A stretch of DNA of 34,516 nucleotides from Bacteroidia bacterium (lineage in GTDB: Bacteria; Bacteroidota; Bacteroidia; Bacteroidales; Prolixibacteraceae): positions 1 to 34,516 of the forward strand of contig JANYJT010000180.1 of NCBI GenBank assembly GCA_025358395.1, read 5' to 3'. Under the pieces are notes generated by a model, which saw nothing but the letters and a program-made list of their open reading frames with translations, ran no database searches and was not told where the DNA came from. Both the position numbers and the translations under genes were made by a program. Numbering within the stretch: position 1 is the first letter of the stretch; each line of letters starts with the position of its first letter. Of this stretch, positions 1,179 through 33,167 are shown piece after piece.

Positions 1179-1182
1179 ATGT

Positions 1183-2140: not shown

Positions 2141-2168
2141 ATGTCTCATATCTCATGTCTCATATCTC
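2141..2168. repeat. Two-copy 14-bp tandem repeat over the parE stop codon
   Basis: The unit ATGTCTCATATCTC occurs at 2141-2154 and again at 2155-2168 without change. The right-hand copy encodes the last residues and the stop codon of parE (stop at 2160-2162), so the C-terminus of ParE is partly made of repeat sequence. The region between parE and the sce7726 gene otherwise holds only the cassette promoter. Confidence 0.85.
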
Positions 2169-3992
2169 ATCTTTCTCTACATGCAGATTTTCTATAATGA
2201 AGTCCTGTCTGTCCGGCGTATTTTTGCCCATGTAAAATTCAAGCATCTCGACAATCGACTCATTTTTGTTCAGAATCACAGGATCGAGGCGGATCTGTTC
2301 ACCAATGAAATTTTTAAATTCATCGGGAGAAATCTCCCCCAGTCCTTTGAAACGTGTGATCTCAACACCTGATGCCAGAATTTTAACTGCTGCATCACGC
2401 TCTTGTTCTGAATAGCAGTATTCAGTACGCTTTTTGTTCCGTACCCTGAAGAGCGGCGTTTGCAGGATGTACAAATGCCCTCTGCGGATCAGTTCAGGAA
2501 AAAACTGGAGGAAAAAAGTGATCAGCAGAAGACGGATGTGCATGCCATCCACGTCGGCATCTGTGGCAATGATCACTTTGTTGTAGCGCAGTTCATCGAT
2601 ACCTTCCTCAATGTTCAGCGCCGCCTGCAAGAGGTTAAATTCCTCGTTTTCGTAAACAATTTTCTTTGTAAGACCATACGAATTCAATGGTTTACCCCTC
2701 AGGCTGAAAACGGCTTGAGAATTGACATCCCTTGATTTGGTAATGGAACCGCTGGCTGAGTCGCCCTCAGTAATAAAAATGGAGCTGACATCCTTGTTTT
2801 CGTGGTTGGTATTGTAATGTAACCGACAGTCTCTCAGTTTTTTGTTGTGAAGGCTCACCTTCTTTGCCCGCTGTTTGGCCAGTTTCTGAATGCCGGATAT
2901 CGCTTTCCGCTCTCTTTCAGATTCCTGTATCCGCCGTAGCAGCACATCTGCGGTCTGCGGATTCTTATGCAGGTAATTCCCCAGTTCTTTCTGGATGAAA
3001 TTCATCACGAAGTTTCGCACCGACATGCCATCCGGCGAAATGTCCCTTGATCCCAGTTTGGTCTTGGTCTGGGATTCAAAAACAGGCTCTTCTACTTTTA
3101 TGCTAATGGCTGCAACGATGGAGGCCCTGATATCCGAGGCATCGAACTCTTTTTTGTAAAAATCCCGGATGGTTTTGATCAGTGCTTCGCGAAAAGCTGC
3201 CAGGTGTGTACCTCCCTGAACAGTGTGCTGTCCGTTGACAAACGAATAGTAATCCTCGCCGTACTGATTTCCGTGGGTAATGGCACTCTCGATGTCTTCT
3301 CCCTTGAGGTGAATAATCGGATAAAGGGGTTCCTGTCCGATGTTTTCGTTTAGCAGGTCATAGAGCCCGTTTTTTGAGAGGTATTTTTCACCGTTGTAGT
3401 TGATCACCAATCCGGCATTCAGATAAGTGTAGTTTTTCAGCATAGCCACCACATACTCGTCGATGTAGTGGTAAGTTTTGAAAATATCATCGTCAGGCGT
3501 GAAAACGACCGTTGTCCCATTGGGTTCTTCGGTAGGAAGCTCATCGTTTTCAACTACAACATCCCCCTTTGAAAACTCAATGATCTTTATCCTGCCATCA
3601 CGGACAGATTTGATTGAAAATGCCATCGACAGGGCGTTGACAGCTTTGATCCCGACACCGTTGAGCCCTACCGATTTTTTGAAAGCCTTGGAATCGTATT
3701 TTGCCCCGGTGTTCATGCGGGCAGCGACGTCCATCAGTTTGCCCAAGGGTATGCCACGGCCATAGTCGCGAACAGAAATCCTTTGATCAGATACCTGGAT
3801 ATCGATCTTCTTGCCGTTACCCATCATGAACTCGTCGACAGAATTATCTATGACCTCTTTGAGCAGGACATAGATGCCATCATCGGCTGCTGAGCCGTCA
3901 CCGAGTTTGCCAATATACATTCCCGGTCGCTTTCTGATGTGTTCTTTCCAGTCGAGTGTACGTATCGAATCTTCAGAATACCCTTGAACCAT
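2160..3992 (-). CDS. parE: DNA topoisomerase IV subunit B
   Basis: ATPase subunit of a type IIA topoisomerase, which with ParC unlinks replicated chromosomes. The 610-residue length fits ParE rather than a long GyrB. The GHKL ATPase domain shows [11 protein letters not shown] (45-55, with E46 and N50), RDYGRGIP (75-82) and the glycine-rich lid [14 protein letters not shown] (109-122). The transducer lysine lies in QTKTKLGS (308-315). The TOPRIM domain has EGDSASGS (409-416), LRGKPLN (431-437) and the metal-binding DADVDG (478-483). All key residues are present, so it should be active. In many Bacteroidota parC follows parE directly; here the next gene is the sce7726 cassette, so parC is displaced or elsewhere. 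GyrB is the alternative, but the short insert-free C-terminus favours ParE. Confidence 0.92.
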
Positions 3993-17280: not shown

Positions 17281-18012
17281 TTACTTCAAAAATTTCTCTC
17301 TTCGTTGAAGGTTCGTCAGTCCGCCCAGCAAAAATACAACACTACCAACTCCAAGGAAAATGCGGTTCTTCTGGGAGATCTGTGCCCAAACCATTTCGTT
17401 CATCCTTTGCGGAATGCTGTATGGATTGTGAAAGACATTCCAGGCAGTTTTGCCTAAGGCATCAGCCATAAACAGCAATGCCACACCAATAAGTATCATC
17501 ACAACAGCGGTTCCGTTTCCATTTTTGACGACGGTGGAAATCAGGAAGGCCATGCATCCCAGAAAGAATACCGGAAACATCAGCTGGAGAGACATCGTAA
17601 AGACAGGAAAGGGGGTCAGGCCAAAATAGCCCAGCCAGCAAAATAGATACAGGATGGCCCAGGTGAGCAGAAAGATCATAAAAAGCCTGATCAGCCATAC
17701 CTTATAGCGGTAATCCGGGATACCAAAAAGGATCTCCAGGATCCGTGAGTCCGCATCGTTTTGAATTCCAAATACAGTAGGATAAAAGACCAGCAATATC
17801 CCTGGAACAATAAGTACACCATAGACATGGGAAGAGTTAAATCCAGGTACGTTGAAAACCAACTGTAAAGACAATAAAATATAAAACACCAGTGATGCCA
17901 GAACAAACCAGAAAAACCGCCCGGCAAAAATAATTTTGAGATTATACTTTGCCATTTTCAACACCAAATCCAGCTTATTCTTCAGTCTACTCTTTAATAT
18001 TGCGTTATCCAT
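17281..18012 (-). CDS. ABC-2 type transporter permease
   Basis: Inner-membrane protein of 243 residues from the ATG at 18012. The frame extends to 18075, but that start would overlap the end of the preceding gene; the inner ATG leaves a 29-bp gap and begins directly at a plausible cytoplasmic N-terminus (MDNAILKSRLKNK). About six hydrophobic segments are present, starting with FFWFVLASLVFYILL, and the segment NDADSRILEILFGIPDYRYK resembles the cytoplasmic coupling region of ABC-2 permeases. It is the last gene of the export operon and follows the RND protein with a fused ABC ATPase, so it is the likely membrane partner of that ATPase. The substrate is unknown. Confidence 0.75.
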   Translation of the reverse strand: MDNAILKSRLKNKLDLVLKMAKYNLKIIFAGRFFWFVLASLVFYILLSLQLVFNVPGFNSSHVYGVLIVPGILLVFYPTVFGIQNDADSRILEILFGIPDYRYKVWLIRLFMIFLLTWAILYLFCWLGYFGLTPFPVFTMSLQLMFPVFFLGCMAFLISTVVKNGNGTAVVMILIGVALLFMADALGKTAWNVFHNPYSIPQRMNEMVWAQISQKNRIFLGVGSVVFLLGGLTNLQRREKFLK

Positions 18013-18041: not shown

Positions 18042-21000
18042 TTATATCTTCTTTTTTAGCCCTTTTAGTATGCACAAATAGGCCTCTTCAAGCACTGGCT
18101 TGACGACTATCGCATCCTCTGCCGGTTTTTCTTCTGATAGGAAACGAACCTTGATCAGCTCTCCATCACGCATATGGTGAATGATTCTTTCTTTCATTGG
18201 GAATGTATCAAATTCCTTTGCAGGGATGTGGAATTGCCATACAAATCCTTCAGCCAGTTTCACCATGTCGTTCGGATGTCCTGCATAACATAGCTCGCCC
18301 CGGTTAACAACTGCCACCTGGTTACAGGAGCTCGAAATATCCTCAATGATGTGGGTAGAGAAAATGACAATCCTTTCGCGGCTCAATTCTACCAAAAGGT
18401 TTCTAAAGCGGATTCTTTCACGTGGATCCAAGCCGGCAGTTGGTTCATCGACCACTAAAATACGTGGTAAATGGAGTAGAATCTGAGCAATACCCATTCG
18501 TTGTTTCATCCCTCCTGAGAATCCGCCGATCTTTTCGTCTTTGCGATCCCAAAGGTGGACAGAGCTTAAGCAATATTCTATCCTTTTGTGTCTGGTGGAA
18601 CCCTCGGTCAGTCCTTTGAGAATGGCCTGATAATCCAGGAATTCATATGCAGACATATTCTCATAGGTACCGAATTCCTGAGGAAGATATCCGATAAGTG
18701 CCTGCAGCTCTTCGCGTTTTTCCTGCGTATCGATTCCATTGATCCAGACTTTGCCGTAGCTTTGTTCGTAGATACCGCAAATGACCCGCATCATCGTTGA
18801 TTTACCTGCTCCATTGGGACCCAATAGGCCAATCATTCCGGTATTGATCTGTAATGAAACACCTTTCAATGCCTTGAATGGATCTCTTTTACGTCCAATC
18901 ACAGGCATTTGCTCAACCAGTTTATAGAATGTGCGGCGGATACCGGCAAATCTTCCTTTCAATCGTTCGATGTTAATTTTTTCATCGTAGAGTCTCTTGG
19001 CGGTAGTATCCACCGATAGGATGAAATACCAGATTACGGCCAGAATTGCCACTGATGCGATCTTCTCCCATTTGAAATAGAAGTAGATAAAAACGAGAAC
19101 CGGAAAGCCCCAATACAATAATTGCTGACCTGATTTCGCAAAATTCTTCATCCATTTCCTGTCCTCATTTTTTGAACGGAAAGTGAGGTATTCTGCAATC
19201 GGTTCCCACATGGCCATGATCATCAAATAGATCAAAATTGCAGTGATCAGGATATACAATCCGTTTTGAAGGTAGCTGAAGGTAAAATAGAACATAAATC
19301 CAAGTAGCGGAATTTGCCAGATAAACAGGTCAAAATCCTTGTAACTGCGGTAATATTTCAATTGACCAGCTCTTTCCCTGATGTTTCTGTTGCCTTTCCA
19401 TTCTCTGGCAAAACGACCGCCCCAATCATAAATTTTAACGAGATTCTGAACCCTGATGGTAATCTGCTTCTCAGGATCGATGACCGTCTCGGTAGCTTTG
19501 CGGAGGCTATTAATGACAAACCAGATGCCCCCCGGAATAACAATAACGAGGGCAATCATATCCAGCATCTTCCACATGAAATCGTCCACTTTCGTGTACA
19601 CCAATGCGATACCACCAACGAATAAAACCCCCTGAAGCACCTTTAATTTCCAATTGAGTTCCTTCATCCAGTTCAGGGAAGTCTCGAGTCCGGAGTAGAA
19701 AGTGGGGATAAATACCAGTGTAAGCAAAGTACTAAGGCTCAATCCGCCAATAACTGTAATAGCAAATGGTGCCCCGATGGCGCCGACATATTCATTGTCA
19801 CCCATGGCAAGGGGTAGCATGGCTGCTATCGTTGCAATGGCGGTGATAAGAATTGGACGAAGCCTCGACATTCCGGCCATGACCAGTGCCCGGTTTTTGC
19901 GGAACCCTCTTTTTCTGAGAATCTGGGTATAGTCTATCAGGATGATTCCATTGTTCACCACTACACCGATCAGGATTAGAAACCCGATCAGGGTATTTGA
20001 ATTAAAGAGGGAATTGTTTGAAAGGATCAGCCCGAGGAATGAGCCAATGGCGGCCAATGGAATGGAGAACATGAGCACAAACGGTGTCGAAACCGACTCG
20101 AATACCGAGGCTAAAATCATGAAAATTAAGAAGAAAGCAGCCCCAATCAGGAAGTAGAAATCCTTAAGCGTATCCTCCTCGTGGATAACCTGAATGGCTA
20201 TCCCTGAAGGCATGTTGTAATTTTCAACGATCTTGTCTACTTCGGCGCGATAGGATTCAAGCAATTCCTTTGATTCCTGAGAAGCGGCCACAAACTGGAA
20301 GCGTACCTCAATTTGCTTTTCCTGGTTCACCCTTGTAATGTTGGCATAACCGGAAGAGAGAACGACATCGCTGATATTTTGAAGATCATGGAGTCCGCCT
20401 TTCGAGTCTGCAATAGGAAGGGTTCTTAATTCAAACGCAGATTTGTTTCTTTTGGCTTCCTCAGGAGTCTGCCCTTTTTTTGGCATCTCCTTGATGGTAA
20501 TGTCATATTGGTCATTGCCTTGTTTAAACGGAATGTTCGTAGCGATCTCTTTACTGAAGGAATTGAGTTCACCGGATACACTGGCAAGTGAGACATCATA
20601 AGCATTCATCAACAGTGGATGAAATTTCAGGTGAACCTCCGGACGGTTATTTGAGAAGCTAACGCGAACACCATTCATAGACTCGAGCCCTTCAAGGAAA
20701 TATTGCAAGTCTGATGCTACATTCTTCATCAGGTCAAAATCCTGGCCTTTGATCAGGATTCTTTCCCAATTGGAACCTACACCCATCATGGACATGAAAT
20801 TGCCTGATCCGGAATTACCGATTCCCATGCTTCCGGTGCTAGCTCCGGTTGAGGAAGCATCGGCAATATCGATGGTCCCACCTGGAACATCCGACATTTT
20901 ATTGGTTACTTCATCTCTGATCTGGGCAAGCGAGCGTTTTTTGATTTTCTGAAAATCTTCTTTCAGTTCTACCATCACACTGGCACTCTCCACCTGAATG

Positions 21001-22778
21001 TTGCAGGTTACATCTTTGATTTCTTCGATGCCTTTTATCCTGTTTTCAATCTCGCTGACCACTTTATCGCTCGACTCAATGGTTGATCCGGATGGCAGGG
21101 TAACATTGATCCGGAAGGCATTGGTGGTAACCTCTTTTTGAGAATTCATACTTACCGCGAGGCAGATGAAAATCGTGACGAAAAAAACGATTAATGCGCC
21201 TACGATCGTTTGAGTGGGTTTCCGCAAGGAATATTTCAGTATCATCACATAGGCCTGGACCGGTTTATTCCTGGTAGAGACCTGTGTAAACTCCATGTTT
21301 CCACCTGCTTTCTTCTTCAGGAAAGCATAAGCAAGCATTGGAACCAACAGCATAGCGACCGCAAGTGAAACCAGCAGTGTGGAAATGATTGAAATACCAA
21401 CATTCTTGCCAAGCAGTTTGATCAGAAAATTATCTGAAAAAAGGAATGGAAGAAAGATTGTTGTCGTTGTCAATGTGGCGGCCAATACTGATCTCCAAAC
21501 TTCAGTAGTACCCTGAATAACAGCATCCCGGGGAGACTTTCCGGTAGCTCGGAGCCGGTAGATATTTTCGAGCACGACGACGCTGTTGTCGAGCAATATC
21601 CCCACCGCCAAGGCCATACCAACCAGTGTCAGACTATTTATCGTAACATCGGCATAGTAGAAAAAATTGAAAGCCGTCAAAACCGAAATAGGGATAGCCA
21701 GTGCGATAATGGATACGAGTTGGATATTTTTCAGGAAAATCCACAGCACAAAAATTGCCAGAAGCGCCCCAACGAGTGCCAGTTCACCAATCTGGTTCAG
21801 GTTCTTCGACATCGTATCGGCGGCATTGTTCTGAACTGTGATCTCGACCTCTTTTGAGACAAGTTCTTTGTTCAGTTTCTCGATGACCGCCAGGGTCTTC
21901 TGAGAGAGTTCGATAAGATTTGATTGAGCGTCGTTTACCAAAGTGATCGATACGGCATCTTTCCCGTTAACCCTTGAATAGGAGGTTACTTCCTTGGTAC
22001 CATAATAAACTTTGGCAACATCTTTCAGCAAAATCGGGCCATTGGCTATTACCAGGTTTTCGAGCTGAAAAAGCTGATCGAATTCTGAGGTAATCTGAAC
22101 TGTATATTTGAGGTTTGACCCATATACATCTCCCGCGTAAGCTCTTGTCTTGTAATTCTGGGAGATCTTGTTCCGGATGGTGTTGGCAGTAATTTTATAG
22201 GCATTACACACATCCATATCCAATTGGATTTCAATGGTCTTCTCATGACCTCCAAAGATATTTATGCCGGCAATACCATCAACGTTCTGGAGATCGGGCT
22301 TAATTTTCAGATCTGTGATATTCCTTACCTGATCAATTCCTCCGCTTCCCCTTACCTGTAACTGCATGAATTGTTTGTTGACCTGACTTGCATCTACCTT
22401 AACCACTGTAACAATAAATTGCGCTGGAATGGTAGCCTTGATTTCATTGATTTTCTCCTGCAACTTCAGGTAGGTGTATTTGAAATTGACCTTCTTGTTG
22501 AACTGAACCATGATGGTTCCCCGTCTGGACTGGCAGGAAGATTCCATATTTTCAATTCCCTGCAGCGTGCCGATGGCTCCTTCGATGGGGATAATGGCCT
22601 GACTCTCCATGAATTTCGGGTCAACCTCCTGCTGGCTTGCTACCTGTACATAAAGCATTGGCAGCTCGGCATTCGGGAAAAGCTCCATCGAAAGATTTTT
22701 CCAGGAGACATATCCCAACATGCTAAGCCCGAGGAAGAGCATGCTGATCAATACTTTTCTTTTTATTATGAAGTCCAT
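18042..22778 (-). CDS. RND efflux pump fused to an ABC transporter ATPase
   Basis: A 1578-residue chimera. Residues 1-1035 are a complete RND pump with 12 membrane segments and two large periplasmic loops; the TM4 relay has D397-N398 (GILLDNSVVVLE) and TM10 has VVNNGIILID in place of the AcrB lysine. Two more membrane segments follow (about 1047-1090). ITIRVQNLVKIY (1106-1117) looks like the first strand and A-loop of an ABC ATPase. About four hydrophobic segments come next (about 1150-1256). The ATPase then resumes with Walker A GPNGAGKST (1320-1328), Q1367, signature FSGGM (1420-1424), Walker B LVVDE (1441-1445) and H1476, all intact. The counted topology keeps both ATPase parts in the cytoplasm. 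It starts 18 bp after the other RND gene. One continuous frame without stop argues against assembly error. Confidence 0.87.
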   Translation of the reverse strand: MDFIIKRKVLISMLFLGLSMLGYVSWKNLSMELFPNAELPMLYVQVASQQEVDPKFMESQAIIPIEGAIGTLQGIENMESSCQSRRGTIMVQFNKKVNFKYTYLKLQEKINEIKATIPAQFIVTVVKVDASQVNKQFMQLQVRGSGGIDQVRNITDLKIKPDLQNVDGIAGINIFGGHEKTIEIQLDMDVCNAYKITANTIRNKISQNYKTRAYAGDVYGSNLKYTVQITSEFDQLFQLENLVIANGPILLKDVAKVYYGTKEVTSYSRVNGKDAVSITLVNDAQSNLIELSQKTLAVIEKLNKELVSKEVEITVQNNAADTMSKNLNQIGELALVGALLAIFVLWIFLKNIQLVSIIALAIPISVLTAFNFFYYADVTINSLTLVGMALAVGILLDNSVVVLENIYRLRATGKSPRDAVIQGTTEVWRSVLAATLTTTTIFLPFLFSDNFLIKLLGKNVGISIISTLLVSLAVAMLLVPMLAYAFLKKKAGGNMEFTQVSTRNKPVQAYVMILKYSLRKPTQTIVGALIVFFVTIFICLAVSMNSQKEVTTNAFRINVTLPSGSTIESSDKVVSEIENRIKGIEEIKDVTCNIQVESASVMVELKEDFQKIKKRSLAQIRDEVTNKMSDVPGGTIDIADASSTGASTGSMGIGNSGSGNFMSMMGVGSNWERILIKGQDFDLMKNVASDLQYFLEGLESMNGVRVSFSNNRPEVHLKFHPLLMNAYDVSLASVSGELNSFSKEIATNIPFKQGNDQYDITIKEMPKKGQTPEEAKRNKSAFELRTLPIADSKGGLHDLQNISDVVLSSGYANITRVNQEKQIEVRFQFVAASQESKELLESYRAEVDKIVENYNMPSGIAIQVIHEEDTLKDFYFLIGAAFFLIFMILASVFESVSTPFVLMFSIPLAAIGSFLGLILSNNSLFNSNTLIGFLILIGVVVNNGIILIDYTQILRKRGFRKNRALVMAGMSRLRPILITAIATIAAMLPLAMGDNEYVGAIGAPFAITVIGGLSLSTLLTLVFIPTFYSGLETSLNWMKELNWKLKVLQGVLFVGGIALVYTKVDDFMWKMLDMIALVIVIPGGIWFVINSLRKATETVIDPEKQITIRVQNLVKIYDWGGRFAREWKGNRNIRERAGQLKYYRSYKDFDLFIWQIPLLGFMFYFTFSYLQNGLYILITAILIYLMIMAMWEPIAEYLTFRSKNEDRKWMKNFAKSGQQLLYWGFPVLVFIYFYFKWEKIASVAILAVIWYFILSVDTTAKRLYDEKINIERLKGRFAGIRRTFYKLVEQMPVIGRKRDPFKALKGVSLQINTGMIGLLGPNGAGKSTMMRVICGIYEQSYGKVWINGIDTQEKREELQALIGYLPQEFGTYENMSAYEFLDYQAILKGLTEGSTRHKRIEYCLSSVHLWDRKDEKIGGFSGGMKQRMGIAQILLHLPRILVVDEPTAGLDPRERIRFRNLLVELSRERIVIFSTHIIEDISSSCNQVAVVNRGELCYAGHPNDMVKLAEGFVWQFHIPAKEFDTFPMKERIIHHMRDGELIKVRFLSEEKPAEDAIVVKPVLEEAYLCILKGLKKKI

Positions 22779-22796: not shown

Positions 22797-25700
22797 TTAA
22801 ATGTCCTGTTCGATGGGTTTGTTACTCGTCAGCAAGTCATACACACAAGGGATTACCAAGAGTGTGAGCAATGTGCTGGTTACCATTCCTCCGATTACTG
22901 CAAGTGCCATTGGTGCCCGAAGTGCCACACTGTCGCCGAAACCAAGTGTAAGCGGAACGAGTGCTATGATAGTGATGATACTTGTCATAAGGATAGGACG
23001 TAATCTTTGCTGTCCGGCCTGGGCTATGGCATCCCTTTTCTCCATTCCAAGCTCCCGTAACTGGTTGATCCGGTCGACGAAGATGATCGAGTCGTTGACG
23101 GCAATTCCACCGAGCATAATGATTCCGATAAGAGCCATCATATTGAACGACTGACCAACAATGTAGAATAAAATGACTGTTCCTACAATTGCAAAAGGTA
23201 TGGACAACAAGATGACAAACGGATGTATCAAGGATTCAAATTTGGCAGCCAAAACCATGTAAACCAAGACGATGGAAAGCAATAGGGCAAACCTTAAATT
23301 GGTCCATGATTCTTGTCTTTTCTGTTCCTCTCCGGCGATTTTAAAGCGGTAATCTGAAGGAAGGTCGACCGCCGAAATTTTGGTCTGTATTTCGTTCGAA
23401 ATTTTATCCAGTGATTCACCTTTTTTCAGGTCGGCCATTACTTTTCCAACCCTGATCTGGTTGCTATGGTAAATCTCTTTCGGCGCAATAGATTCTTTCA
23501 ATTGTGCCACTTCTCCGAGTCTCACAACAGTCGTACCACTGCGGATAATAACATCTCCCAGTTCAGACATACCCAATTTGGGAAGATGAATTGTAATATC
23601 GCGTAATTCCCCGTTTTTGTCATACTGTCCTACGAGCTGTCCTGTCAGTTTACTCGTTACCTGGGTCACGATATCGCTTACTGCCAGATTATAAGTTCCG
23701 GCACGGAAACGGTCGACCATCACATTGTATTCAGGATAGCCCTGATCCATGTTGGTGGATAAATTGTACAATCCAGGTATATCCTGAACGACCTTTTTAG
23801 TACGATGAACCAATGAATCAAGAACAACGAGATCGTCACCCCTAATTTCGACTACTATTGGCGCCTCACTATTTCCCAGAATACTTTGCAAAGCTGTTTC
23901 ATCCTGAGAAAAGCTGACCTCCAGGTCCGGATTTTTTGAATACCATTCTGCTATGGAAGCGATTACTTTAGATGAACTTAATTTTACATCAGGCTGTAGA
24001 ATTACTTTTATTTCGGCCGTATTATCTCCTTCGAAGATGGATTGAGCGTTGGTTGACAGTCCGGTAGAAGGTCCAATCCTGGAATAAAGTCCCAGCAAAT
24101 CCTTATCAAGCAGTTCTCTTACCATTCCTTCGATGGAAGCGGCAGCTTCCGAGGTACGTAATAAGGTAGTCCCGGCTTTCATTTTTAGGTTGATGGAGAA
24201 TTCCTTGCTATCGCTTTTGGGCATAAATTCACTGCCAATTCTTGGAATTAGGAAAAGCGACAAACCAAACAACACCAGCGAAGAAAGAATAATAACCATT
24301 CGGTGGGGGAGAAGATTCGTCAAGAAATTGCTGTATCCTGTTCTTTTTTGAATTGAGATAGAAGCGCTTTTGCGATTCATAAAGAAACGGTGATACAACA
24401 TCGGTATCACGAAAATGGCTACAACCAGGGATGACAGAAGTGAAAAGGCAACAGTCCATGCCTGATCTTTGAACAGGGCGCCAGATGCTCCATGCATGTA
24501 AATAATAGGCAGGAATACAACGATGTGGGTAAGTGTGGAAGCAGTGATAGCTCCTCCAACTTCGGCTGTTCCAACGATAGCAGCCTCTTTTGCCGACATT
24601 CCGTTTTCGTGGTTCCTGAATATATTCTCCATGACTACGATGGCATTGTCTACGAGCATTCCTGCTCCGAGAGCCAAACCTCCAAGGGTCATGATATTTA
24701 GCGATAATCCATTGAAATACATTAAATTAAATGTCGCAACAATAGAGATAGGGATAGATAAACTGACAATCAGGGTGGTTCCGATTCTTCTCAGGAAAAG
24801 GAATAGGATGATAATGGCGAGAATGATCCCAAAATACATGGTGTTTTTCACCTCATCGACTGCGCTGCGGATAAAAGTTCCCTGGTTGGAAACTACCGTG
24901 AATTTATATCCCGGAAGGGCTTTCTCGATGGTAACCAGCGTTTTGTTGATCTCTTCAACTGCTTTGACCGTATTGTATTTGGTCTCCTTGTAAATTGACA
25001 AGGCGATGCAGCGTTCGCCGTTGATTCGTACTATGTTGACCGGCTCTTTATTCTCGAAGCTGACTTTGGCGACATCCTTCAGGAAGGTGGGTGCTTTTTC
25101 AGCAGATGTACTTCCGGCTATGATCGTTTTGTAACCAACGATCAGGTTCTCGAAATCCTCTTTTTGCTGTAAAAGACTTACACCTTTAACAACATATTGT
25201 AATCCGGTTTCCGTAATGGTTCCGCCTGAAATACTTCTGTTATAGGACTGAATTTTGGAGGAAAGCTGATCGACGGTTAAATTATAAGATTCGAGCGCAT
25301 AAGGATCAGTGTCAATGCGAACTTCATTTTGTTCGATGCCGCTCAAATCGACCTGTGCGACTCCTTCTATCCGGACTAGCTCGTTACGGATATAGTTTTC
25401 TGCCACTTTTCGTAACTCGTTCATGTCCTTGATGGTGGTATGTGACATACCAACGACCATGGCAGGCTTCGTATTCGGATCGTGCTGGGTAATGGTCAGT
25501 TCTGTGATCTGACTATTCTGAGAATAGCTGGTCAAGGCTTTCTGAAGGTCGAGGAATGCCTCGTCCATGTCCTTGTTCCAGGCATATTCTACAGTTATTT
25601 GAGCAGATCCTGTCTGAGAAATGGAAGAGGTATTGAGAACCCCACTCTGACGAGTAGCGATGGCTTCAATATTAGACACATAGAGTTTTTCCATCTCCTC

Positions 25701-25871
25701 AGGAGGTCTCTCACCTGACTTGATCTCAACGAAAATTCGTGGTGAATTCAAGTCGGGAAAAAGATCGATCCCCAGTTTCTGATAGGAGATGACACCTAGG
25801 AGCAGAACTCCCAGGACCATCATGAGAATGGTAACCGGAAAGTTGACTGCAAAATTTGTCAATTTCTTCAT
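22797..25871 (-). CDS. RND efflux transporter permease subunit
   Basis: Inner-membrane, ion-driven exporter of 1024 residues, the normal length for the hydrophobe/amphiphile RND family. The first helix (about 11-30) is followed by a large periplasmic loop; the second repeat starts near 523. TM4 carries D408 in GAGMLVDNAIVVMENIF, the proton-relay aspartate, followed by Asn where AcrB has a second Asp. TM10 has GGIAVNDSIIFVD with N926-D927. RNDs of this type work with a periplasmic adaptor and a TolC channel, and both lie immediately upstream (44-bp gap to the adaptor). It differs from the second RND downstream in length and sequence, so the two may form a heteromeric pump, as MdtB and MdtC do, though that is inference. 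Confidence 0.9.
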   Translation of the reverse strand: MKKLTNFAVNFPVTILMMVLGVLLLGVISYQKLGIDLFPDLNSPRIFVEIKSGERPPEEMEKLYVSNIEAIATRQSGVLNTSSISQTGSAQITVEYAWNKDMDEAFLDLQKALTSYSQNSQITELTITQHDPNTKPAMVVGMSHTTIKDMNELRKVAENYIRNELVRIEGVAQVDLSGIEQNEVRIDTDPYALESYNLTVDQLSSKIQSYNRSISGGTITETGLQYVVKGVSLLQQKEDFENLIVGYKTIIAGSTSAEKAPTFLKDVAKVSFENKEPVNIVRINGERCIALSIYKETKYNTVKAVEEINKTLVTIEKALPGYKFTVVSNQGTFIRSAVDEVKNTMYFGIILAIIILFLFLRRIGTTLIVSLSIPISIVATFNLMYFNGLSLNIMTLGGLALGAGMLVDNAIVVMENIFRNHENGMSAKEAAIVGTAEVGGAITASTLTHIVVFLPIIYMHGASGALFKDQAWTVAFSLLSSLVVAIFVIPMLYHRFFMNRKSASISIQKRTGYSNFLTNLLPHRMVIILSSLVLFGLSLFLIPRIGSEFMPKSDSKEFSINLKMKAGTTLLRTSEAAASIEGMVRELLDKDLLGLYSRIGPSTGLSTNAQSIFEGDNTAEIKVILQPDVKLSSSKVIASIAEWYSKNPDLEVSFSQDETALQSILGNSEAPIVVEIRGDDLVVLDSLVHRTKKVVQDIPGLYNLSTNMDQGYPEYNVMVDRFRAGTYNLAVSDIVTQVTSKLTGQLVGQYDKNGELRDITIHLPKLGMSELGDVIIRSGTTVVRLGEVAQLKESIAPKEIYHSNQIRVGKVMADLKKGESLDKISNEIQTKISAVDLPSDYRFKIAGEEQKRQESWTNLRFALLLSIVLVYMVLAAKFESLIHPFVILLSIPFAIVGTVILFYIVGQSFNMMALIGIIMLGGIAVNDSIIFVDRINQLRELGMEKRDAIAQAGQQRLRPILMTSIITIIALVPLTLGFGDSVALRAPMALAVIGGMVTSTLLTLLVIPCVYDLLTSNKPIEQDI

Positions 25872-25915: not shown

Positions 25916-26971
25916 TTATTTGACGATCTTAACTTTTGAGTTATCCCTCAGGGTCTCGAAACCTTTTACAACCAGACGGGTATTGGCCTTTAATCCTTCG
26001 ATGACCTCAACAGATTTATCATTTTCCAGTCCGGTGGTAATGGTTCTGCGCTGTGCGGCCCCTTTGTCAACAATGAATATGGTCTTGCCTCTGCCGCCGG
26101 CTACGATGATGTCTTTTGGAATTACAATCGCACTGTCTTTTCTGGCAATTTCGATGTCTGCCTTGACAAACATTCCCGGGCGCAATTTAAGATTTGGATT
26201 GTCGATGGTCATGCGACCCATGAAAGTACGCGTTTCTGTACTGATTACTGGAGAAAGCTGGCTGATCTGAGCTTTCAGTGTATCATTTGGCATGGTATAA
26301 TTTGTAATGTTTACCTCTTGTGCCAACTTGATCGTCGTCAAATATTTTTCAGGAAGATTTACATCCATGGTAAGTTTAGAATAATCCATTAGGGTGATTA
26401 CTGCAGTTCCTGCACTGATGCGGGCATTGTTGGTGATATGAGGAATGTCAACAATAGCACCACGGAAAAGTGCCTTCACCTCAGTCTTCTGCAACTGAAT
26501 TTTAGCATCCTCGAAGCTGGTTTTTGTATTTGCGAGCGCTACTTCAGCATTTTTAGTATCCCTCAAGGTGACACCACCTTTTTCGTAAAGTGATTTTTGT
26601 TTCTCATATTCGAGACCCGCGATTTCAAAATTTAATTTCTTGGTATCGTATGAGATGTTGTTTACATATTCCGGATTATCGATCTTAACGAGAACGGTTC
26701 CTTTTTCTACCAGATCACCAAGTTTAAATTCTTTACCCGTTTTTGGATTTATGGCAAGGTTGTAATTGCCGGCCATTTCGGTGGTTAATGAGACCTGGTT
26801 GGCAGCATTAGCTGTACCTGTACTGTTAATATACTGGACGATAGGTCCTTTTTTGACATCTATGACAGACACTGGTACAGCGATATCATTTTGAAGCTGA
26901 CTTTGTTGATTGCCGCAGGAGGCCAGAACAGGAAGAAGGAAGATGAATCTCCACAATTTATTGATTTTCAT
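25916..26971 (-). CDS. Efflux periplasmic adaptor (membrane fusion) lipoprotein
   Basis: A 351-residue HlyD/AcrA-type adaptor that links an inner-membrane pump to a TolC channel. The N-terminus MKINKLWRFIFLLPVLASCG is a lipoprotein signal with C19 as the lipid anchor. The order is a first beta-barrel and lipoyl half (with DLVEKGTVLVKIDN, around residues 87-100), a helical hairpin (about 105-160), second lipoyl half, beta barrel and the C-terminal membrane-proximal domain. It has the usual family length. It lies between tolC (31-bp gap) and the first RND gene (44-bp gap). It is the only adaptor in the operon, so both RND proteins, and possibly the ABC parts, would have to share it. Confidence 0.9.
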   Translation of the reverse strand: MKINKLWRFIFLLPVLASCGNQQSQLQNDIAVPVSVIDVKKGPIVQYINSTGTANAANQVSLTTEMAGNYNLAINPKTGKEFKLGDLVEKGTVLVKIDNPEYVNNISYDTKKLNFEIAGLEYEKQKSLYEKGGVTLRDTKNAEVALANTKTSFEDAKIQLQKTEVKALFRGAIVDIPHITNNARISAGTAVITLMDYSKLTMDVNLPEKYLTTIKLAQEVNITNYTMPNDTLKAQISQLSPVISTETRTFMGRMTIDNPNLKLRPGMFVKADIEIARKDSAIVIPKDIIVAGGRGKTIFIVDKGAAQRRTITTGLENDKSVEVIEGLKANTRLVVKGFETLRDNSKVKIVK

Positions 26972-27002: not shown

Positions 27003-28490
27003 TTATTTACTTTTGGCTTTGAGATAGTGATCAGGAACAACGGCTTCGTTGGTTGAAAAATCGAACAAGGATTGAATTTTAAGATTCAGCAATTCAAGTT
27101 TGTAATTGATAAGTGCTTGGGCATAAGCCATTTTGTTATTGGAAAGTTGAACTTGGTATAAGTTGAGGTCCATACTAGTCAGATCACCGTTCTTGTATCT
27201 TTCCAAATTGATGTCATAGGTAAGCTGTGAATTATTCTGATTTTGCAGTGCTATGCCAATCTGGTCCTTTAAGTTTCCGAGATTTCGGATACTCTGCCTA
27301 ATATCCACTTTTATTTGAATATCCTGGTTTGTATAATTCAATTTTTGTGTATTAATAACGGCATTCTGCGCCCTGATCTGGGCAGCTCGCTGTCCCCAGT
27401 CAAAAATCGGGACGGTGAATGTAATGCCATAATGAGGGCTTTTGGTTGGTTTGTCATAAATCTGGCTTAAAGTCGGATCATTGCCGGTGATTCCAACCGA
27501 CAAGGCAAGATCGCCTCTGAATTCGTTTTGTGCTTTTATGGCAATCAGGTCAAACATTGAGGTTTCAATGCTGATTTGTCTTTGGCGCAACTCCATACGG
27601 GAAGAGAGTCCATGCTCGAGCGCTTTTTTGCCATCTATTTCAATGGGAGCAACCGCTACATCTGTCATCACGGAGATCTCTTCAAAGATATCCATCCCAA
27701 TATATTGTTTAAACTGATCTTTGGCGCTTTCAAGCTGAACACGTGCAGAGGCTTTGCTCGATTTGGATGTGGCAAGGTTCACTTCAGCCTGGAATAGCTG
27801 CTCTTTTGCTGCCAATCCTGCTTCTACTTTATTTTTAATGATTTCGTAGCTCTTCTCAGTATTAACATTTTCATCTTCCCGGATAGACAGGCTCATCTGG
27901 GCCATGTACACATTGTAGAAAAGCTGTGTCACCATTTTTTCGAGGGCGAGCTTTTGCATGGAATAACTAAGCTGGGCATTCTCATTGTTCAATTCCAAGG
28001 TCTTCAAGGCTACTTTTGTCCGGTTATAAGTAAACAATGGCTGTGACAAGGAGAGGTATAGATTGTTAAGATAGGCCTTGTTCACGATGGAACTGCCCGA
28101 AGCATCTGAGGTATTTGATTGCCAGCTGAAAGTATTCACCAATGAAATTTTACCGTCAGTGGCAAGGATTGGCTGATCAACTCTGAAAGTACCGGACGAA
28201 TTGATGACCTCGTTGGTAAACCATTGGGAAGTACGGTTGTCGAATTTTCGGCTGTTGCTGTAATCGATAGGATTGAGGCTCAGGGCAAATTTTGATTTAA
28301 GGCCTGCACGCTGTGCATTCAATGTCTCGGTTGTCCTTTGGAGGTTGAGCAAGGTGCCCTGAATACTTGGACTATTGACCACAGCAGTTTCCATGGCTTT
28401 TTCCAGGGTGAGTATGGTCTGACCCTGAGATTCTAAGCTTAAAAAAAGCAGCGAACTCATAAAAAACAGTAGTGTTGAAACTTTTTTCAT
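27003..28490 (-). CDS. TolC-family outer-membrane efflux channel
   Basis: A 495-residue outer-membrane protein with a Sec signal peptide (MKKVSTLLFFMSSLLFLSLESQGQ). The two repeated outer-membrane-efflux domains show long helices and repeated patterns rich in Gln, Asn, Ala and Leu, such as LEKAMETAVVNSPSIQGTLL near the start and NINLERYKNGDLTSMDLNLYQ-like helices near the C-terminus, typical of the TolC periplasmic barrel. The protein would form the exit duct for the pumps encoded after it. It follows the ABC permease gene after 73 bp, the largest gap in the operon. Confidence 0.88.
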   Translation of the reverse strand: MKKVSTLLFFMSSLLFLSLESQGQTILTLEKAMETAVVNSPSIQGTLLNLQRTTETLNAQRAGLKSKFALSLNPIDYSNSRKFDNRTSQWFTNEVINSSGTFRVDQPILATDGKISLVNTFSWQSNTSDASGSSIVNKAYLNNLYLSLSQPLFTYNRTKVALKTLELNNENAQLSYSMQKLALEKMVTQLFYNVYMAQMSLSIREDENVNTEKSYEIIKNKVEAGLAAKEQLFQAEVNLATSKSSKASARVQLESAKDQFKQYIGMDIFEEISVMTDVAVAPIEIDGKKALEHGLSSRMELRQRQISIETSMFDLIAIKAQNEFRGDLALSVGITGNDPTLSQIYDKPTKSPHYGITFTVPIFDWGQRAAQIRAQNAVINTQKLNYTNQDIQIKVDIRQSIRNLGNLKDQIGIALQNQNNSQLTYDINLERYKNGDLTSMDLNLYQVQLSNNKMAYAQALINYKLELLNLKIQSLFDFSTNEAVVPDHYLKAKSK

Positions 28491-28563: not shown

Positions 28564-31500
28564 TTATTTTTCTTTTACAAGTTTGACCGCATCCGCATAG
28601 ACTGATCTGGCTTTCGAATTGTTTGTCAGCTCTATCTTCGCCGAATCAGAAGAGAAGTGATAGGTTCCAACTTCGACCCATGCACTTTCCCGGGCATCTG
28701 CTTTGACTGCAGGATGATCAACGCCATCATCATGCGTGACGTTGAATTCGTAAACATCATCGGGCTGATTATCTCCGCCTCTCATCCCGAAGCGGATCTT
28801 TGGAATATATGCATACACCTTGTAATAACCACCTTCCTTGAGCGGTACACTCCAAATGGCTTTTCTGTCGCCGGTACCCCCTTTGCAATAATAGGCCGAC
28901 CGTATCTGTTTGCCATAAAATAGTTCATTGGTAGTCAGGGTCCATTCAACCTGTGGATTCCACATGTTCATTCCTTTGTATTTTAATTCATCGTCCGGAA
29001 CATCTGAAGTGAACAATCTCTTTATAAAGCTTTTGGAGACCGGTTGTACCAACCTGAATCCTTTGTCTTCTGTATCTACAATAAGATCAGTTGGCTCCGA
29101 ACCATCAGTAAATGGAATAACCTCCTCTTTGTCAGAACCTTCTCCTTTTGGATCTATATCCAATTTATCAAAGCGTTGTGAAATCGTTGAAGGAAGATTA
29201 TGAGAGGCATACGTATTGATCGTCATCATCCTTGGATCCCTGTTCAAAAGGAAGGTGAGTCGTTTGGACTCTTTTGCACCGATGACCACCGTTTTTTCGA
29301 TGTTTTCATCGCTGCCGCCACCGCCACCGCCACCTCTTCTCATGTTCATCCCGCCAAATCCACCGAGTCTGAAAGTAACAGTGATGGCTCCGGAAATATT
29401 CTCTGTATTGGTCAGGACGAAGGAAACGACCGTTTTAATTTGGTTATCCTTTTGAATTTTAAAGGCTTTTGTGTCGATTAAGATGTAACCAGGTAAAGTT
29501 ACTGAAGTGTACCATTGCGGCAAATATTGATCCAAATCAAGATTGAAATTGTTGCGCATCTCGGTGTTTAATTCATCTACCTGGATGGTTCTGAATTTTC
29601 GGCTATCAAGGAAGCCCCGCATAAAGTCATCAAATTTTTCGGGACCAACTGCGCCTTTCATCAATGCAAAGAGGAAACCACTTTTGGTTTGAACGACATT
29701 GTTCAGAATATCAGAATCCGCCTGTTTCTCAAGGATATCTGAGAATGACCTGTTTTGTAAGGCGATGTTTCCTTTTTCGTCGCCCGAAAGCCCCATCATA
29801 TTGCGCATAAAATTGTTGCCGCCTTCAGTAGCACTCTTTGATAGGTATGATTCCACAACCCTGTTTGTGATAGGATAAATTGGGGAAGCAATAAAATTCA
29901 GGTAATTGTAATAATTTGGAAATATAAAATAAGGATTAAGAATGTCCGTGGTAGTAAAATTTGGACCCCCGCCACCAATACGGATACCATTGAAAGAGCC
30001 AAACGGATCGACCTTGCTACTTAAAAAAGCGTCGTTGATGAACCGTTTCAGGTAGTTGGCCTCGGTTTCTCGCGGCGAAATGGTTTCATTGTTGCCATGG
30101 TCACGATTTTGATTTTGCGAATTTTTCTTGATGCCGGCAAAATTTGTGCTGCTAATTTTGTAACCACCTTCGGCCATATAGACTGTTTCGGGCTGAACCT
30201 GTTCTCCGGCACTGGTCCAGGCATGATTAAACGAGCAAAACTGTACAGGGATCTCAACCAATTGAAGCCGTTGGAATGGATATTCTCTGCGGATTTTGAT
30301 CTCCCATGATTTCTTTACATCACGGATAACCGGGATTATGGAATCCGTCAACGTCTTAAAGAATGGATCAAAAGTATTGTGGCCTTTGAAAAAGCTTAAG
30401 GAATAGGTGACTTTATCAACAGTCACAGACCGGGTTTGGTAGCTTCCGATAGCCAATGATAGCTGCGTCAGTGGTTGATCAGGCTCAAAAGAGGTAGTCC
30501 CGTCGGTTCCTTCTGTTTTCTTCCCCTGCGAAAGAACTGTGAGTCCTTTCGCCGTCTTTACTTTCAGGTGGAATTTGGAAAATTGAGTGGCCAGCCAGTT
30601 TAACCCTTTGGTGGAATAACTTATTCCGGCGGTTGGATACCAGCGGGTCTCCGGAGTAAGCAATAAATATTCAGGAGTTACAAAAGCGTGTTTCTTGTCT
30701 ATTACGCCATTCGGACTATTTTTCCATTTCTCAAGTTGGATTGGAGTCTGATCGAGGTAACAGAAAGTTTCGTCGATGGTGCCTTTGTATTGAATGCTGA
30801 TATTAGTGGAATCACCAGACTGAAGTGCTTTATCCGGTTGGATTTTGATGATTTGCATCTCTCTGGTAAATTTTCCTCCTGACAATTGTACCACTTCAAG
30901 GCCGGGATTGAGGGTGAGCACAAATTCGCTAAGTGCCTCTTTTCCTGTATTTTTAACTTTTAGGTTAGCTGTTGCAATAATTTGATTTCCGGAATGTTCC
31001 AGGTCGATATCATTCGAGAGAATCTCTACTACTTTCATTGGAGCGTAACGATTGTTCAAGTCGACCATCTCACCTCTGTGCTGCTCTTCATTGGATATGT
31101 TATTCAGATAAATGATACCTAGAATGACTCCCGCGCTAAGAAATACCAGGGAGAAAGCGATGACCACCTCTTTAACAAACTTGGACTGTGACAAGCGTTT
31201 TAGCAACAATATCGTCAAACAGATAAATCCCAACCCTAAAAAGAAATATATCCCCCGATGAATCAAAATCTCTTTCAAGGAACTGAATCCAACAACTTCC
31301 GACCAGGTCATAGGCAGTTTAAATGCCATATAATCAAAAATATAATGGAATTTATTTTGAAGGTAAAACAATGTAGCCGCGATGTAACCAAGTAAAACAA
31401 GAAATGTAACTGCTTGATTTTTAATTACTGACATTAAAAAGAAAGAGAATCCCATGATGAAAATCAGCGTTGGGATGCTGATCAACAGAAAATAGTAAAT

Positions 31501-31938
31501 GTAGGGGAGGAGATTAAAACGGGTATACGGTGAAGCCATGTTAAATACCGCCACCATACCAAGTGCAACCGCGTTCAACATGACGAATACCCAGATATTT
31601 CCGAGTGTCTTGCCGATCACGTAATCAGCATTTGTTATAGATCGCATGTAGACTACTTCTGTCGTATCCAGTTTCTTGTCCTGTTTCAAAAACTCTGAAG
31701 CGAGGAAAACTGCAATGATGGCCTGTGCCAGGTTGATGATGTAAAGATTGGTAAAAGGAATCATCGAAGGAATGGCGATGATGTCTCCATTGGGATAGCC
31801 GACTGCTGTTTGCGTCCAAAAGTTATAGAAAAATACAAAGACCAGCGATAAAATGGAGAAAATGCGAAAGAACCAACTTCTGAACAAAGTAATTGATTCG
31901 TATTTTGCTACTGCGAATATATTGTGAATTGCTCTCAT
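28564..31938 (-). CDS. ABC permease with M1-peptidase-like domain lacking the zinc motif
   Basis: An 1124-residue protein. Residues 1-280 form an ABC-2 type permease with about seven hydrophobic segments. Residues 285-1000 are periplasmic and resemble M1 aminopeptidases of the permease/M1 fusion family; the conserved VEIPVQFCSFNHAWTS and YMAEGGY segments (561-593) occur where the exopeptidase site should be. No HExxH occurs anywhere, so the peptidase part is almost certainly inactive and may bind peptides or proteins. A Gly-rich stretch (RRGGGGGGG, 867-875) separates subdomains. Residues about 1005-1122 resemble the golvesin/Xly carbohydrate-binding-like domain (GGYYKVYAYIP, then VEVGTYHF and YADAVKLV). 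The ATPase gene lies 25 bp upstream and is its expected partner. The domain names are from sequence pattern only. Confidence 0.75.
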   Translation of the reverse strand: MRAIHNIFAVAKYESITLFRSWFFRIFSILSLVFVFFYNFWTQTAVGYPNGDIIAIPSMIPFTNLYIINLAQAIIAVFLASEFLKQDKKLDTTEVVYMRSITNADYVIGKTLGNIWVFVMLNAVALGMVAVFNMASPYTRFNLLPYIYYFLLISIPTLIFIMGFSFFLMSVIKNQAVTFLVLLGYIAATLFYLQNKFHYIFDYMAFKLPMTWSEVVGFSSLKEILIHRGIYFFLGLGFICLTILLLKRLSQSKFVKEVVIAFSLVFLSAGVILGIIYLNNISNEEQHRGEMVDLNNRYAPMKVVEILSNDIDLEHSGNQIIATANLKVKNTGKEALSEFVLTLNPGLEVVQLSGGKFTREMQIIKIQPDKALQSGDSTNISIQYKGTIDETFCYLDQTPIQLEKWKNSPNGVIDKKHAFVTPEYLLLTPETRWYPTAGISYSTKGLNWLATQFSKFHLKVKTAKGLTVLSQGKKTEGTDGTTSFEPDQPLTQLSLAIGSYQTRSVTVDKVTYSLSFFKGHNTFDPFFKTLTDSIIPVIRDVKKSWEIKIRREYPFQRLQLVEIPVQFCSFNHAWTSAGEQVQPETVYMAEGGYKISSTNFAGIKKNSQNQNRDHGNNETISPRETEANYLKRFINDAFLSSKVDPFGSFNGIRIGGGGPNFTTTDILNPYFIFPNYYNYLNFIASPIYPITNRVVESYLSKSATEGGNNFMRNMMGLSGDEKGNIALQNRSFSDILEKQADSDILNNVVQTKSGFLFALMKGAVGPEKFDDFMRGFLDSRKFRTIQVDELNTEMRNNFNLDLDQYLPQWYTSVTLPGYILIDTKAFKIQKDNQIKTVVSFVLTNTENISGAITVTFRLGGFGGMNMRRGGGGGGGSDENIEKTVVIGAKESKRLTFLLNRDPRMMTINTYASHNLPSTISQRFDKLDIDPKGEGSDKEEVIPFTDGSEPTDLIVDTEDKGFRLVQPVSKSFIKRLFTSDVPDDELKYKGMNMWNPQVEWTLTTNELFYGKQIRSAYYCKGGTGDRKAIWSVPLKEGGYYKVYAYIPKIRFGMRGGDNQPDDVYEFNVTHDDGVDHPAVKADARESAWVEVGTYHFSSDSAKIELTNNSKARSVYADAVKLVKEK
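29310..29334. repeat. CCGCCA hexamer repeats encoding a glycine run
   Basis: Tandem CCGCCA/CCACCG units encode the RRGGGGGGG linker in the permease protein (about residues 868-875). Such repeats can vary in copy number by slippage, in steps that keep the frame. The effect here is probably only linker length. Confidence 0.6.
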
Positions 31939-31963: not shown

Positions 31964-32860
31964 TTAAATTTCTATCCATTTCTGGTTGAGTTCATTTTCC
32001 ATAAAATTGACGTATGCATGTTCCAGATTGGGATCGATTCTTTCACCCAGGTAGCCATTGACCTCCTTGGATACCACCTGTACTTCCCATCCTTCCTCCG
32101 AAGGAATGGAGGAGATGATCGGATATTTTTCCTGAATCTCGAAATATTCGGTTTCCGTAGCCGTGATTTTCCAAACATTGTTTTTGGCCAGATCGATCAG
32201 GTGTTCAGGCGAACCTTTGTATGACAAAATACCCTTGTTCATCAGGGCCATATCGGTACAGGTACTTGAGATATCACCAACGATGTGTGTTGAGAGGATG
32301 ATCACCACATCCTTGTCGCTTACTCGTGTCAGGAGGTTTCTGAACCTGATCCGCTCTTCGGGATCGAGGCCGGTAGTCGGTTCATCCACAATAATCAGCC
32401 TGGGATCGCCGATCAACGCCTGCGCAATACCCAACCGGCGTTTCATACCTCCGGATAAGTTGTTGGCAAAGCGGTTGCGTGCTTCGTAAAGACCAACCTC
32501 CTCAAGCATTTTTTCTACAGTGTTGTTTCTGACTTTGGTGTTTGTCAGTCCGGAAAGACGGGCTGCATAATCCAGAAATTCGTAGGTTTTTAGTTTCGTA
32601 AAGAAGCGAAAATCCTGGGGCAGGTAACCTAGCATGGAGCGGATTTCCTTTCTGTCTTTCATCAGATCCAAACCGTTTACCAGAACCTGACCGGAGGAGG
32701 GTTTCATCAGAGTTACCAGAATTCGCATCAGTGTAGATTTTCCGGCACCGTTTGGACCAAGCAATCCGAACATCCCACTTTCGATGGTCATGTTAACATC
32801 CTTAATGGCGTGATTTCCATTAGGATAGACCTTATTGAGTCCTTTGATCTCAATCTTCAT
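31964..32860 (-). CDS. ABC transporter ATP-binding protein
   Basis: Cytoplasmic ATPase of 298 residues that should drive the adjacent permease. The frame extends to 32899, but the ATG at 32860 starts MKIEIKGLNKVY, the normal first strand of such proteins. Walker A is GPNGAGKST (35-43), Q-loop Q82, signature LSGGM (135-139), Walker B IIVDE (156-160) and H192 the switch. A C-terminal extension of about 90 residues follows. Its closest partner in this window is the ATPase domain of the 1578-residue RND fusion: both have VDEPT-GLDP-ERIRFRNLL and a THI-DISS segment, so the two look like paralogues. It is the first gene of the export operon. No convincing promoter was found in the 307-bp gap upstream. 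Confidence 0.9.
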   Translation of the reverse strand: MKIEIKGLNKVYPNGNHAIKDVNMTIESGMFGLLGPNGAGKSTLMRILVTLMKPSSGQVLVNGLDLMKDRKEIRSMLGYLPQDFRFFTKLKTYEFLDYAARLSGLTNTKVRNNTVEKMLEEVGLYEARNRFANNLSGGMKRRLGIAQALIGDPRLIIVDEPTTGLDPEERIRFRNLLTRVSDKDVVIILSTHIVGDISSTCTDMALMNKGILSYKGSPEHLIDLAKNNVWKITATETEYFEIQEKYPIISSIPSEEGWEVQVVSKEVNGYLGERIDPNLEHAYVNFMENELNQKWIEI

Positions 32861-33167
32861 AAGTGAATTATATAATAGTGTATTGAGGCAAATTGGCAAT
32901 ATTTATTGACAATTTCGGAACTTTGACAACAAAATTTAAAAATGGTTTAACCACTGTAGAAATTATCAATACTATCCTGGTACAAGCCAAATGAATCGAT
33001 TTTCGTTTTTAAAATCTGAGCAAAAGTGATTCATACTCGATGTTGTCAACATAATCAACCATTTTGAATTTAAATATCATATTTACAATGTGTTGTAATG
33101 AGTTTGAAACAGTCGGTATTACTTGTTAATTTGCAAGAAACAATGTATCTTTGAATAAGGAATTGAA
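32861..33167. other. Divergent intergenic region between export operon and hicBA
   Basis: An AT-rich stretch of 307 bp. It holds the hicBA promoter near its right end. For the leftward export operon I found no exact TAnnTTTG element; the nearest, TAAATTTTG on the minus strand at about 32931-32939, has one extra base. No hairpin, gene or RNA was recognised. Confidence 0.5.
33123..33153 (+). promoter_or_regulatory. Promoter of the hicBA pair
   Basis: TTG at 33123-33125 is followed after 20 bases by TATCTTTG at 33146-33153, matching the Bacteroidota sigma factor consensus with correct spacing. Transcription should begin close to 33160, just before the gene. Confidence 0.7.

Follow-up and report, generated by a model that had tools for sequence, protein, structure and literature searches.

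Resistance-nodulation-division (RND) and ATP-binding cassette (ABC) exporters are classed as distinct superfamilies, each with its own energy source. The closest described systems include the hydrophobe/amphiphile efflux (HAE)-type RND permeases, such as AcrB, MexB, and MdtB/MdtC (PF00873); the ABC-2 exporters DrrAB, NosFY, PmtCD, and ABCG; and the tripartite pump MacAB-TolC. ABC nucleotide-binding domains (NBDs) with inserted domains are also known, namely the chromodomain of EF3 and the coiled coils of SMC and Rad50. We analyzed a 34,516-nt stretch of DNA, hereafter the window, from a Bacteroidia bacterium of the Prolixibacteraceae (GenBank assembly GCA_025358395.1, contig JANYJT010000180.1). 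The window encodes RND2::NBD_B (18042..22778; the fusion and its operon lie on the minus strand), a 1578-aa protein whose open reading frame (ORF) starts with ATG and is free of internal stops. The analysis confirmed that this fusion begins with a full RND permease, to which six additional membrane helices and an ABC ATPase are appended. All of its domains except the membrane insert are of known kinds. To our knowledge, the combination of RND and ABC, and above all an ATPase interrupted by a membrane bundle, is undescribed. Narrow, exact-term searches of open-licence papers, in which absence carries little weight, returned no description of an RND-ABC fusion; passages of PMC5595328 describe an ABC tripartite pump without one. 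Databases label such proteins automatically, for example as 'multidrug efflux pump subunit AcrB/ABC-type multidrug transport system ATPase subunit'.

The RND half (residues 1-1029; 19692..22778) matched the Pfam profile ACR_tran over residues 2-1029 with a score of 520.5 bits, covering positions 3-1018 of 1021. This near full-length match and the 12 helices identified by hydropathy make it an RND-type permease. It resembles the HAE-type permeases in both of these features, in a relay Asp in transmembrane helix 4 (TM4), and in an operon that includes an adaptor and a TolC; unlike them, it shares its chain with six further helices and an ABC ATPase. The best sequence match to a solved structure was MdtB (9lyq), and the scores against NCBIfam RND models were well below their cut-offs. 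The RND half is followed by an extra membrane hairpin, TM13-14 (residues 1047-1089; 19512..19640), seen in hydropathy profiles and as helices in a predicted model. Next come the first strand and A-loop of the ATPase (residues 1106-1117; 19428..19463) and an insert of ~180 residues (18882..19427) with four membrane helices (residues 1152-1258), which alignments A1 and A2, hydropathy, and the model place between strands 1 and 2. The rest of the ATPase occupies residues 1300-1578 (18045..18881).

The Pfam profile ABC_tran matched residues 1304-1448 with 100.8 bits over its full length (positions 1-137 of 137). The sequence-only reading of this DNA, which had reported an RND transporter and a complete ABC ATPase in one frame, was thus correct, as ACR_tran and ABC_tran both fall within the single 1578-aa ORF. 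The motifs were also located at the residues it quoted: ITIRVQNLVKIY at 1106-1117, Walker A (GPNGAGKST) at 1320, FSGG at 1420, Walker B (ILVVDEPTAGLD) at 1440, and FSTH at 1473. The better NCBIfam matches of the fused ATPase include GldA and DrrA, both far below their cut-offs. The fused ATPase has this likeness in common with the ATPases of ABC-2 exporters; in contrast to them, it shares a polypeptide with an RND pump, and a bundle of four membrane helices interrupts it.

The same architecture was found in many genomes, as a homolog search proposed with the sequence-only reading was meant to reveal. In a protein search with 3882 matches, the best 120, which were listed, comprised the window's own protein and 119 relatives, 115 of which were at least 1552 aa long. 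Scanning GTDB species genomes with an alignment of the membrane insert yielded 443 relatives, the best 80 of which were taken as loci. The RND half and the insert were in one frame in 69 of these, and ATPase sequence was in frame with the insert in all 80. Nine of the remaining 11 loci reach a contig end, one (L007) is a short 1236-aa frame on a 3.9-kb contig, and one (L044) is naturally split. Among the 69 one-frame loci, L027 leaves its contig within the ATPase and L070 breaks near its end. According to record titles, 14 of the 80 loci come from named strains rather than metagenome-assembled or uncultured genomes (L019, L020, L024, L025, L026, L028, L033, L036, L047, L048, L054, L061, L064, and L065), and the frame is 1572-1603 aa long in every one of them. 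Prolixibacter, Sunxiuqinia, and Labilibaculum are among the named strains with the fusion. Because the architecture is present in named strains, misassembly or a frameshift is excluded. The probability that such an artifact joins two genes is practically nil, given the 69 one-frame loci.

Samples of whole genomes were also searched for the insert. The search detected it in 7 of 395 genomes from the phylum of Prolixibacter, one of them marginal (E 6e-4, 408-aa frame), and in 40 of 295 from its order, with a frame of at least 1500 aa in 32 of the 40. These counts may be low, as at most 7 and 10 candidates, respectively, were scored per genome. In the phylum of a KSB1 genome, 41 of 82 sampled genomes carried the insert, 31 of them with a frame of at least 1500 aa. 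Residue counts reported below are based on the window plus those loci, 67 of the 80, whose frame reaches at least 1500 aa (n = 68), and structure alignment A2 contains the window and 75 of the 80 loci (L005, L007, L027, L049, and L070 were omitted). In L044, the two halves are separate genes, with the break between TM14 and strand 1; this is the sole clean split among the 80 loci. The split (L044:5505-5722) contains a gap of ~210 nt with an inverted repeat whose 41-nt arms are 80% complementary. In a further genome (G768:C183:6720-7582), the fusion frame is broken within the insert into open frames of 1206 and 381 aa, reflecting either a frameshift or a second natural split.

The sequence-only reading had proposed that the NBD is split, with residues 1106-1117 forming its first strand, and that structure prediction should reveal this. 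In the structure predicted for residues 1035-1578 (predicted template modeling score, pTM, 0.57), residues 1108-1116 form a strand. All 50 matches listed from VIA-align begin at model residues 67-73, equivalent to fusion residues 1101-1107; 1vpl overlays the model over 235 of 238 residues at 2.0 Å. Overall, the model overlays canonical ATPases from about residue 1106. The best match to a first-strand profile fell on the 1106-1117 segment in all 68 proteins, 190-250 residues before Walker A. Further, Walker A, the Q-loop, the signature, the Walker B Glu, the D-loop, the H-loop, and the A-loop aromatic residue are all present and invariant in the 68 sequences (Y1117, K1326, Q1367, S1421, E1445, D1451, and H1476). 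The predicted fold is therefore that of a canonical ABC ATPase, first strand included, in which the usual contiguous chain is replaced by one where ~180 residues and four helices separate strand 1 from strand 2. The model overlay, the profile result, and the position of the L044 gene break just before the strand together support the interpretation that the fused ATPase is a complete NBD, in which a membrane bundle of four helices is predicted to separate the first strand and A-loop from the rest.

An alternative is that residues 1106-1117 merely resemble a strand and that the ATPase starts near residue 1300, either lacking strand 1 or with its sheet completed otherwise. Consistent with this, 160 of 5000 shuffles of window residues 1031-1300 reached the observed profile score, and the predicted local distance difference test (pLDDT) score averaged 54 over the ten residues from 1115 on. 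As the shuffle test makes the single-sequence evidence weak, the weight of the argument lies on the profile result across the 68 proteins and on the model. These results, together with the invariance of Y1117 and the natural break in L044, render the alternative very improbable.

The interruption distinguishes this NBD from others. The NBD chains of EF3, SMC, and Rad50 are likewise interrupted; their inserts are soluble, whereas that of the fusion is membrane-spanning and lies between strands 1 and 2. If the predicted fold is true, the nucleotide-binding fold of an ABC ATPase can accommodate four membrane helices, a finding relevant to how a very conserved NBD can be taken apart. MacB, as described in passages of PMC5595328, also combines four helices and an NBD in one protein, with the NBD at the N-terminus and a large periplasmic domain; MacAB-TolC further shares with the present system a link of ABC transport to an adaptor and TolC. 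In the fusion, by contrast, the four helices are inside the NBD, the predicted periplasmic loops between them are short (about five residues), and the periplasmic part is that of the RND permease. On that description of MacB, domain order and loop lengths rule out a MacB-like reading of the fusion.

Mean hydropathy over the 68 aligned sequences assigned 12 segments to the RND half, two to residues 1047-1089, and four to residues 1152-1258. The threshold used was low, 1.0, and it also selected residues 1428-1446 within the ATPase, which we take as a buried core segment. At a threshold of 1.4, single-sequence hydropathy missed the third segment of the insert (residues 1216-1234). Lys and Arg residues outnumbered Asp and Glu residues in the loops at 1090-1148, which contains the first strand (means of 14.0 versus 7.9), at 1192-1215 within the insert (5.6 versus 1.9), and at 1259-1300 (10.7 versus 2.9). 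This excess agrees with the positive-inside rule, such that the cytosolic placement of these loops is as expected. The two other loops of the insert, each about five residues long, are predicted to be periplasmic. These data bear out the 12 + 2 + 4 topology of the sequence-only reading, with both parts of the ATPase in the cytoplasm. The PDB matches to the model span model residues 67-544, of which the aligned part is the NBD, judging by the aligned lengths, and thus barely test the membrane bundle. A weak match to DUF4271 covers the insert region (18831-19493, minus strand). A relationship to this family was not accepted: the window's own sequence matched (E 9.8e-5, below cut-off), and the other 11 of 12 insert sequences had no DUF4271 match at 0.05.

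The fusion is the sixth of seven genes that share one strand; in the window, 18-73 nt separate adjacent genes. The sequence-only reading, whose account of the fusion itself stood, had overlooked this operon and the ABC-2 permease gene directly downstream. In order, the genes encode NBD_A, a separate ABC ATPase (31964..32899; ABC_tran); ABC2M1 (28564..31938); a TolC-type outer membrane channel (27003..28490; PF02321); a periplasmic adaptor, or membrane fusion protein (MFP; 25916..26971; TIGR01730 above cut-off); RND1, a second, unfused RND permease (22797..25871; ACR_tran, 720.5 bits); the fusion; and permD, an ABC-2 type permease (17281..18012; 243 aa if it starts at ATG 18012, in an ORF that opens with GTG 18075). 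The operon thus contains two ATPases, two ABC-2-like permeases, and two RND permeases with one adaptor and one TolC, with the adaptor and outer membrane channel expected alongside an RND permease. The arrangement of RND1 beside the fusion recalls MdtB/MdtC, in which two RND partners lie side by side. With the insert excluded, NBD_A and the fused ATPase share 42% identity over 293 columns.

ABC2M1 comprises an ABC-2-permease-like membrane part, an M1-peptidase-like domain, and Golvesin_C, the last above its cut-off. The ABC-2 and M1 matches of the window copy were below cut-off, and homologs contributed to the assignment; seven hydrophobic segments are present in residues 18-276. The HExxH motif was not found in the M1-like domain of any of 18 homologs, and ABC2M1 is likely a conserved pseudo-peptidase on a transporter, judging from these sequences. 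In permD, the predicted fold and profile match indicate a six-helix ABC-2 permease, and the predicted structure aligns with the membrane parts of NosY-type, PmtCD, and ABCG exporters. Alignment A3 of permD included the window and 69 of 73 listed copies. In the window, the fused ATPase is the sole ATPase gene that adjoins permD.

This gene order is conserved. RND1 is upstream of the fusion in 69 of the 80 loci, the other 11 being at contig edges. Similarly, permD is downstream in 75; four of the five loci without it are at contig edges, and the fifth (L072) has 674 nt left. The MFP was found in 61 loci and TolC in 60, counts limited by the available flank. In all 14 genomes retrieved for this purpose (L112-L125), the order NBD_A-ABC2M1-TolC-MFP-RND1 is upstream of the fusion. 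The operon surrounding the fusion is retained both in Bacteroidales and in the phylum to which the KSB1 genome belongs. In a divergent relative from the latter phylum (L126, G765), the cluster is divided in two: the fusion and permD form one half, oriented divergently from a second half that contains the remaining five genes.

The RND half was compared with the proton relay of AcrB, which we take to consist of D407, D408, K940, R971, and T978. In the fusion, D397 (TM4) and R972 and T979 (TM11) are invariant in all 68 sequences; the position of the second Asp of AcrB is Asn in 67 of 68 and that of the Lys is Asn in all 68. As the residues of the ATPase and the main relay residues of the RND half are invariant, selection appears to act on both activities. 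The Asp-Asn and Asn pattern is mostly shared by RND1, so Asn at the relay positions is no mark of the fusion. The sequence-only claim that one chain carries both engines is supported at the level of conserved catalytic residues and qualified by the two Asn positions. One explanation of the covalent link is that the RND half is the target of the ATPase, which would serve as an ATP-powered gate or as an extra motor for RND cycling; permD would then be an accessory. The membrane hairpin and membrane-embedded insert that join the two would fit this arrangement, and the Asn substitutions might alter proton coupling. Nevertheless, RND1 has mostly the same pattern without any ATPase, and the presence of permD downstream in 75 of 80 loci also argues against this explanation, which we consider improbable. 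Given the ABC-2 permease directly downstream, gene order suggests that the fused ATPase is likelier to power permD, tethered to an RND tripartite pump, than to drive the RND half.

We propose, at about even probability, that the seven-gene operon encodes a composite trans-envelope exporter with the fusion as one subunit. In it, NBD_B would drive permD, the simplest role for this ATPase, and the ABC part would be joined to the RND1/RND2-adaptor-TolC pump. Starting from the observed architecture, conservation, and gene order, and from the predicted folds, we infer the following steps. The four-helix bundle would anchor NBD_B in the inner membrane. NBD_B may pair with permD, as gene order and family suggest, and NBD_B/permD, probably with NBD_A/ABC2M1, would form a heterodimeric ABC exporter. 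The covalent link would keep this ATP-driven exporter next to the RND1/RND2 pump with its adaptor and TolC. A substrate would first leave the cytoplasm or inner leaflet through the ABC part; the RND part, driven by ions, would then pass it through the adaptor and TolC, giving transfer in series. Somewhat short of even probability is a dual-engine machine, in which an ABC-2 exporter and an RND pump joined in one polypeptide carry the same substrate from the cytoplasm to the outside in series, with the core sheet of the ATPase threaded across the membrane bundle.

Several points weigh against the composite exporter. An RND trimer and an ABC dimer differ in stoichiometry, unless the RND part is a heterotrimer in which one subunit occurs twice, for which MdtBC is a precedent. 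Gene order and family membership are the basis for pairing NBD_B with permD, Asn occupies two of the AcrB relay positions, and the pTM of the model leaves the position of the membrane bundle relative to the ATPase uncertain. In addition, one genome (L044) carries the two halves as separate genes, and joint inheritance of the operon would look identical if two independent transporters were merely co-expressed. The last two points are in line with another possibility, that the ABC-2 exporter (NBD_B and permD) and the RND tripartite pump are independent and share a chain solely for co-expression or co-localization: covalent linkage is evidently not always needed, and each half retains its own set of residues. 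However, the fusion and its operon are kept in Bacteroidales as well as in the KSB1 phylum, and L044 is an isolated case among the 80 loci. We regard independence as unlikely, though appreciably less so than an action of the ATPase on the RND half. With a conserved protein that contains both RND and ABC in named strains, the coupling of the two is directly testable.

Elsewhere in the window, a gene pair of the sce7725/sce7726 family is located at 243-2040 (minus strand). Adjoining this pair is a gene at 2160-3992 that encodes a 610-aa GyrB/ParE-like protein, with matches below curated cut-offs.
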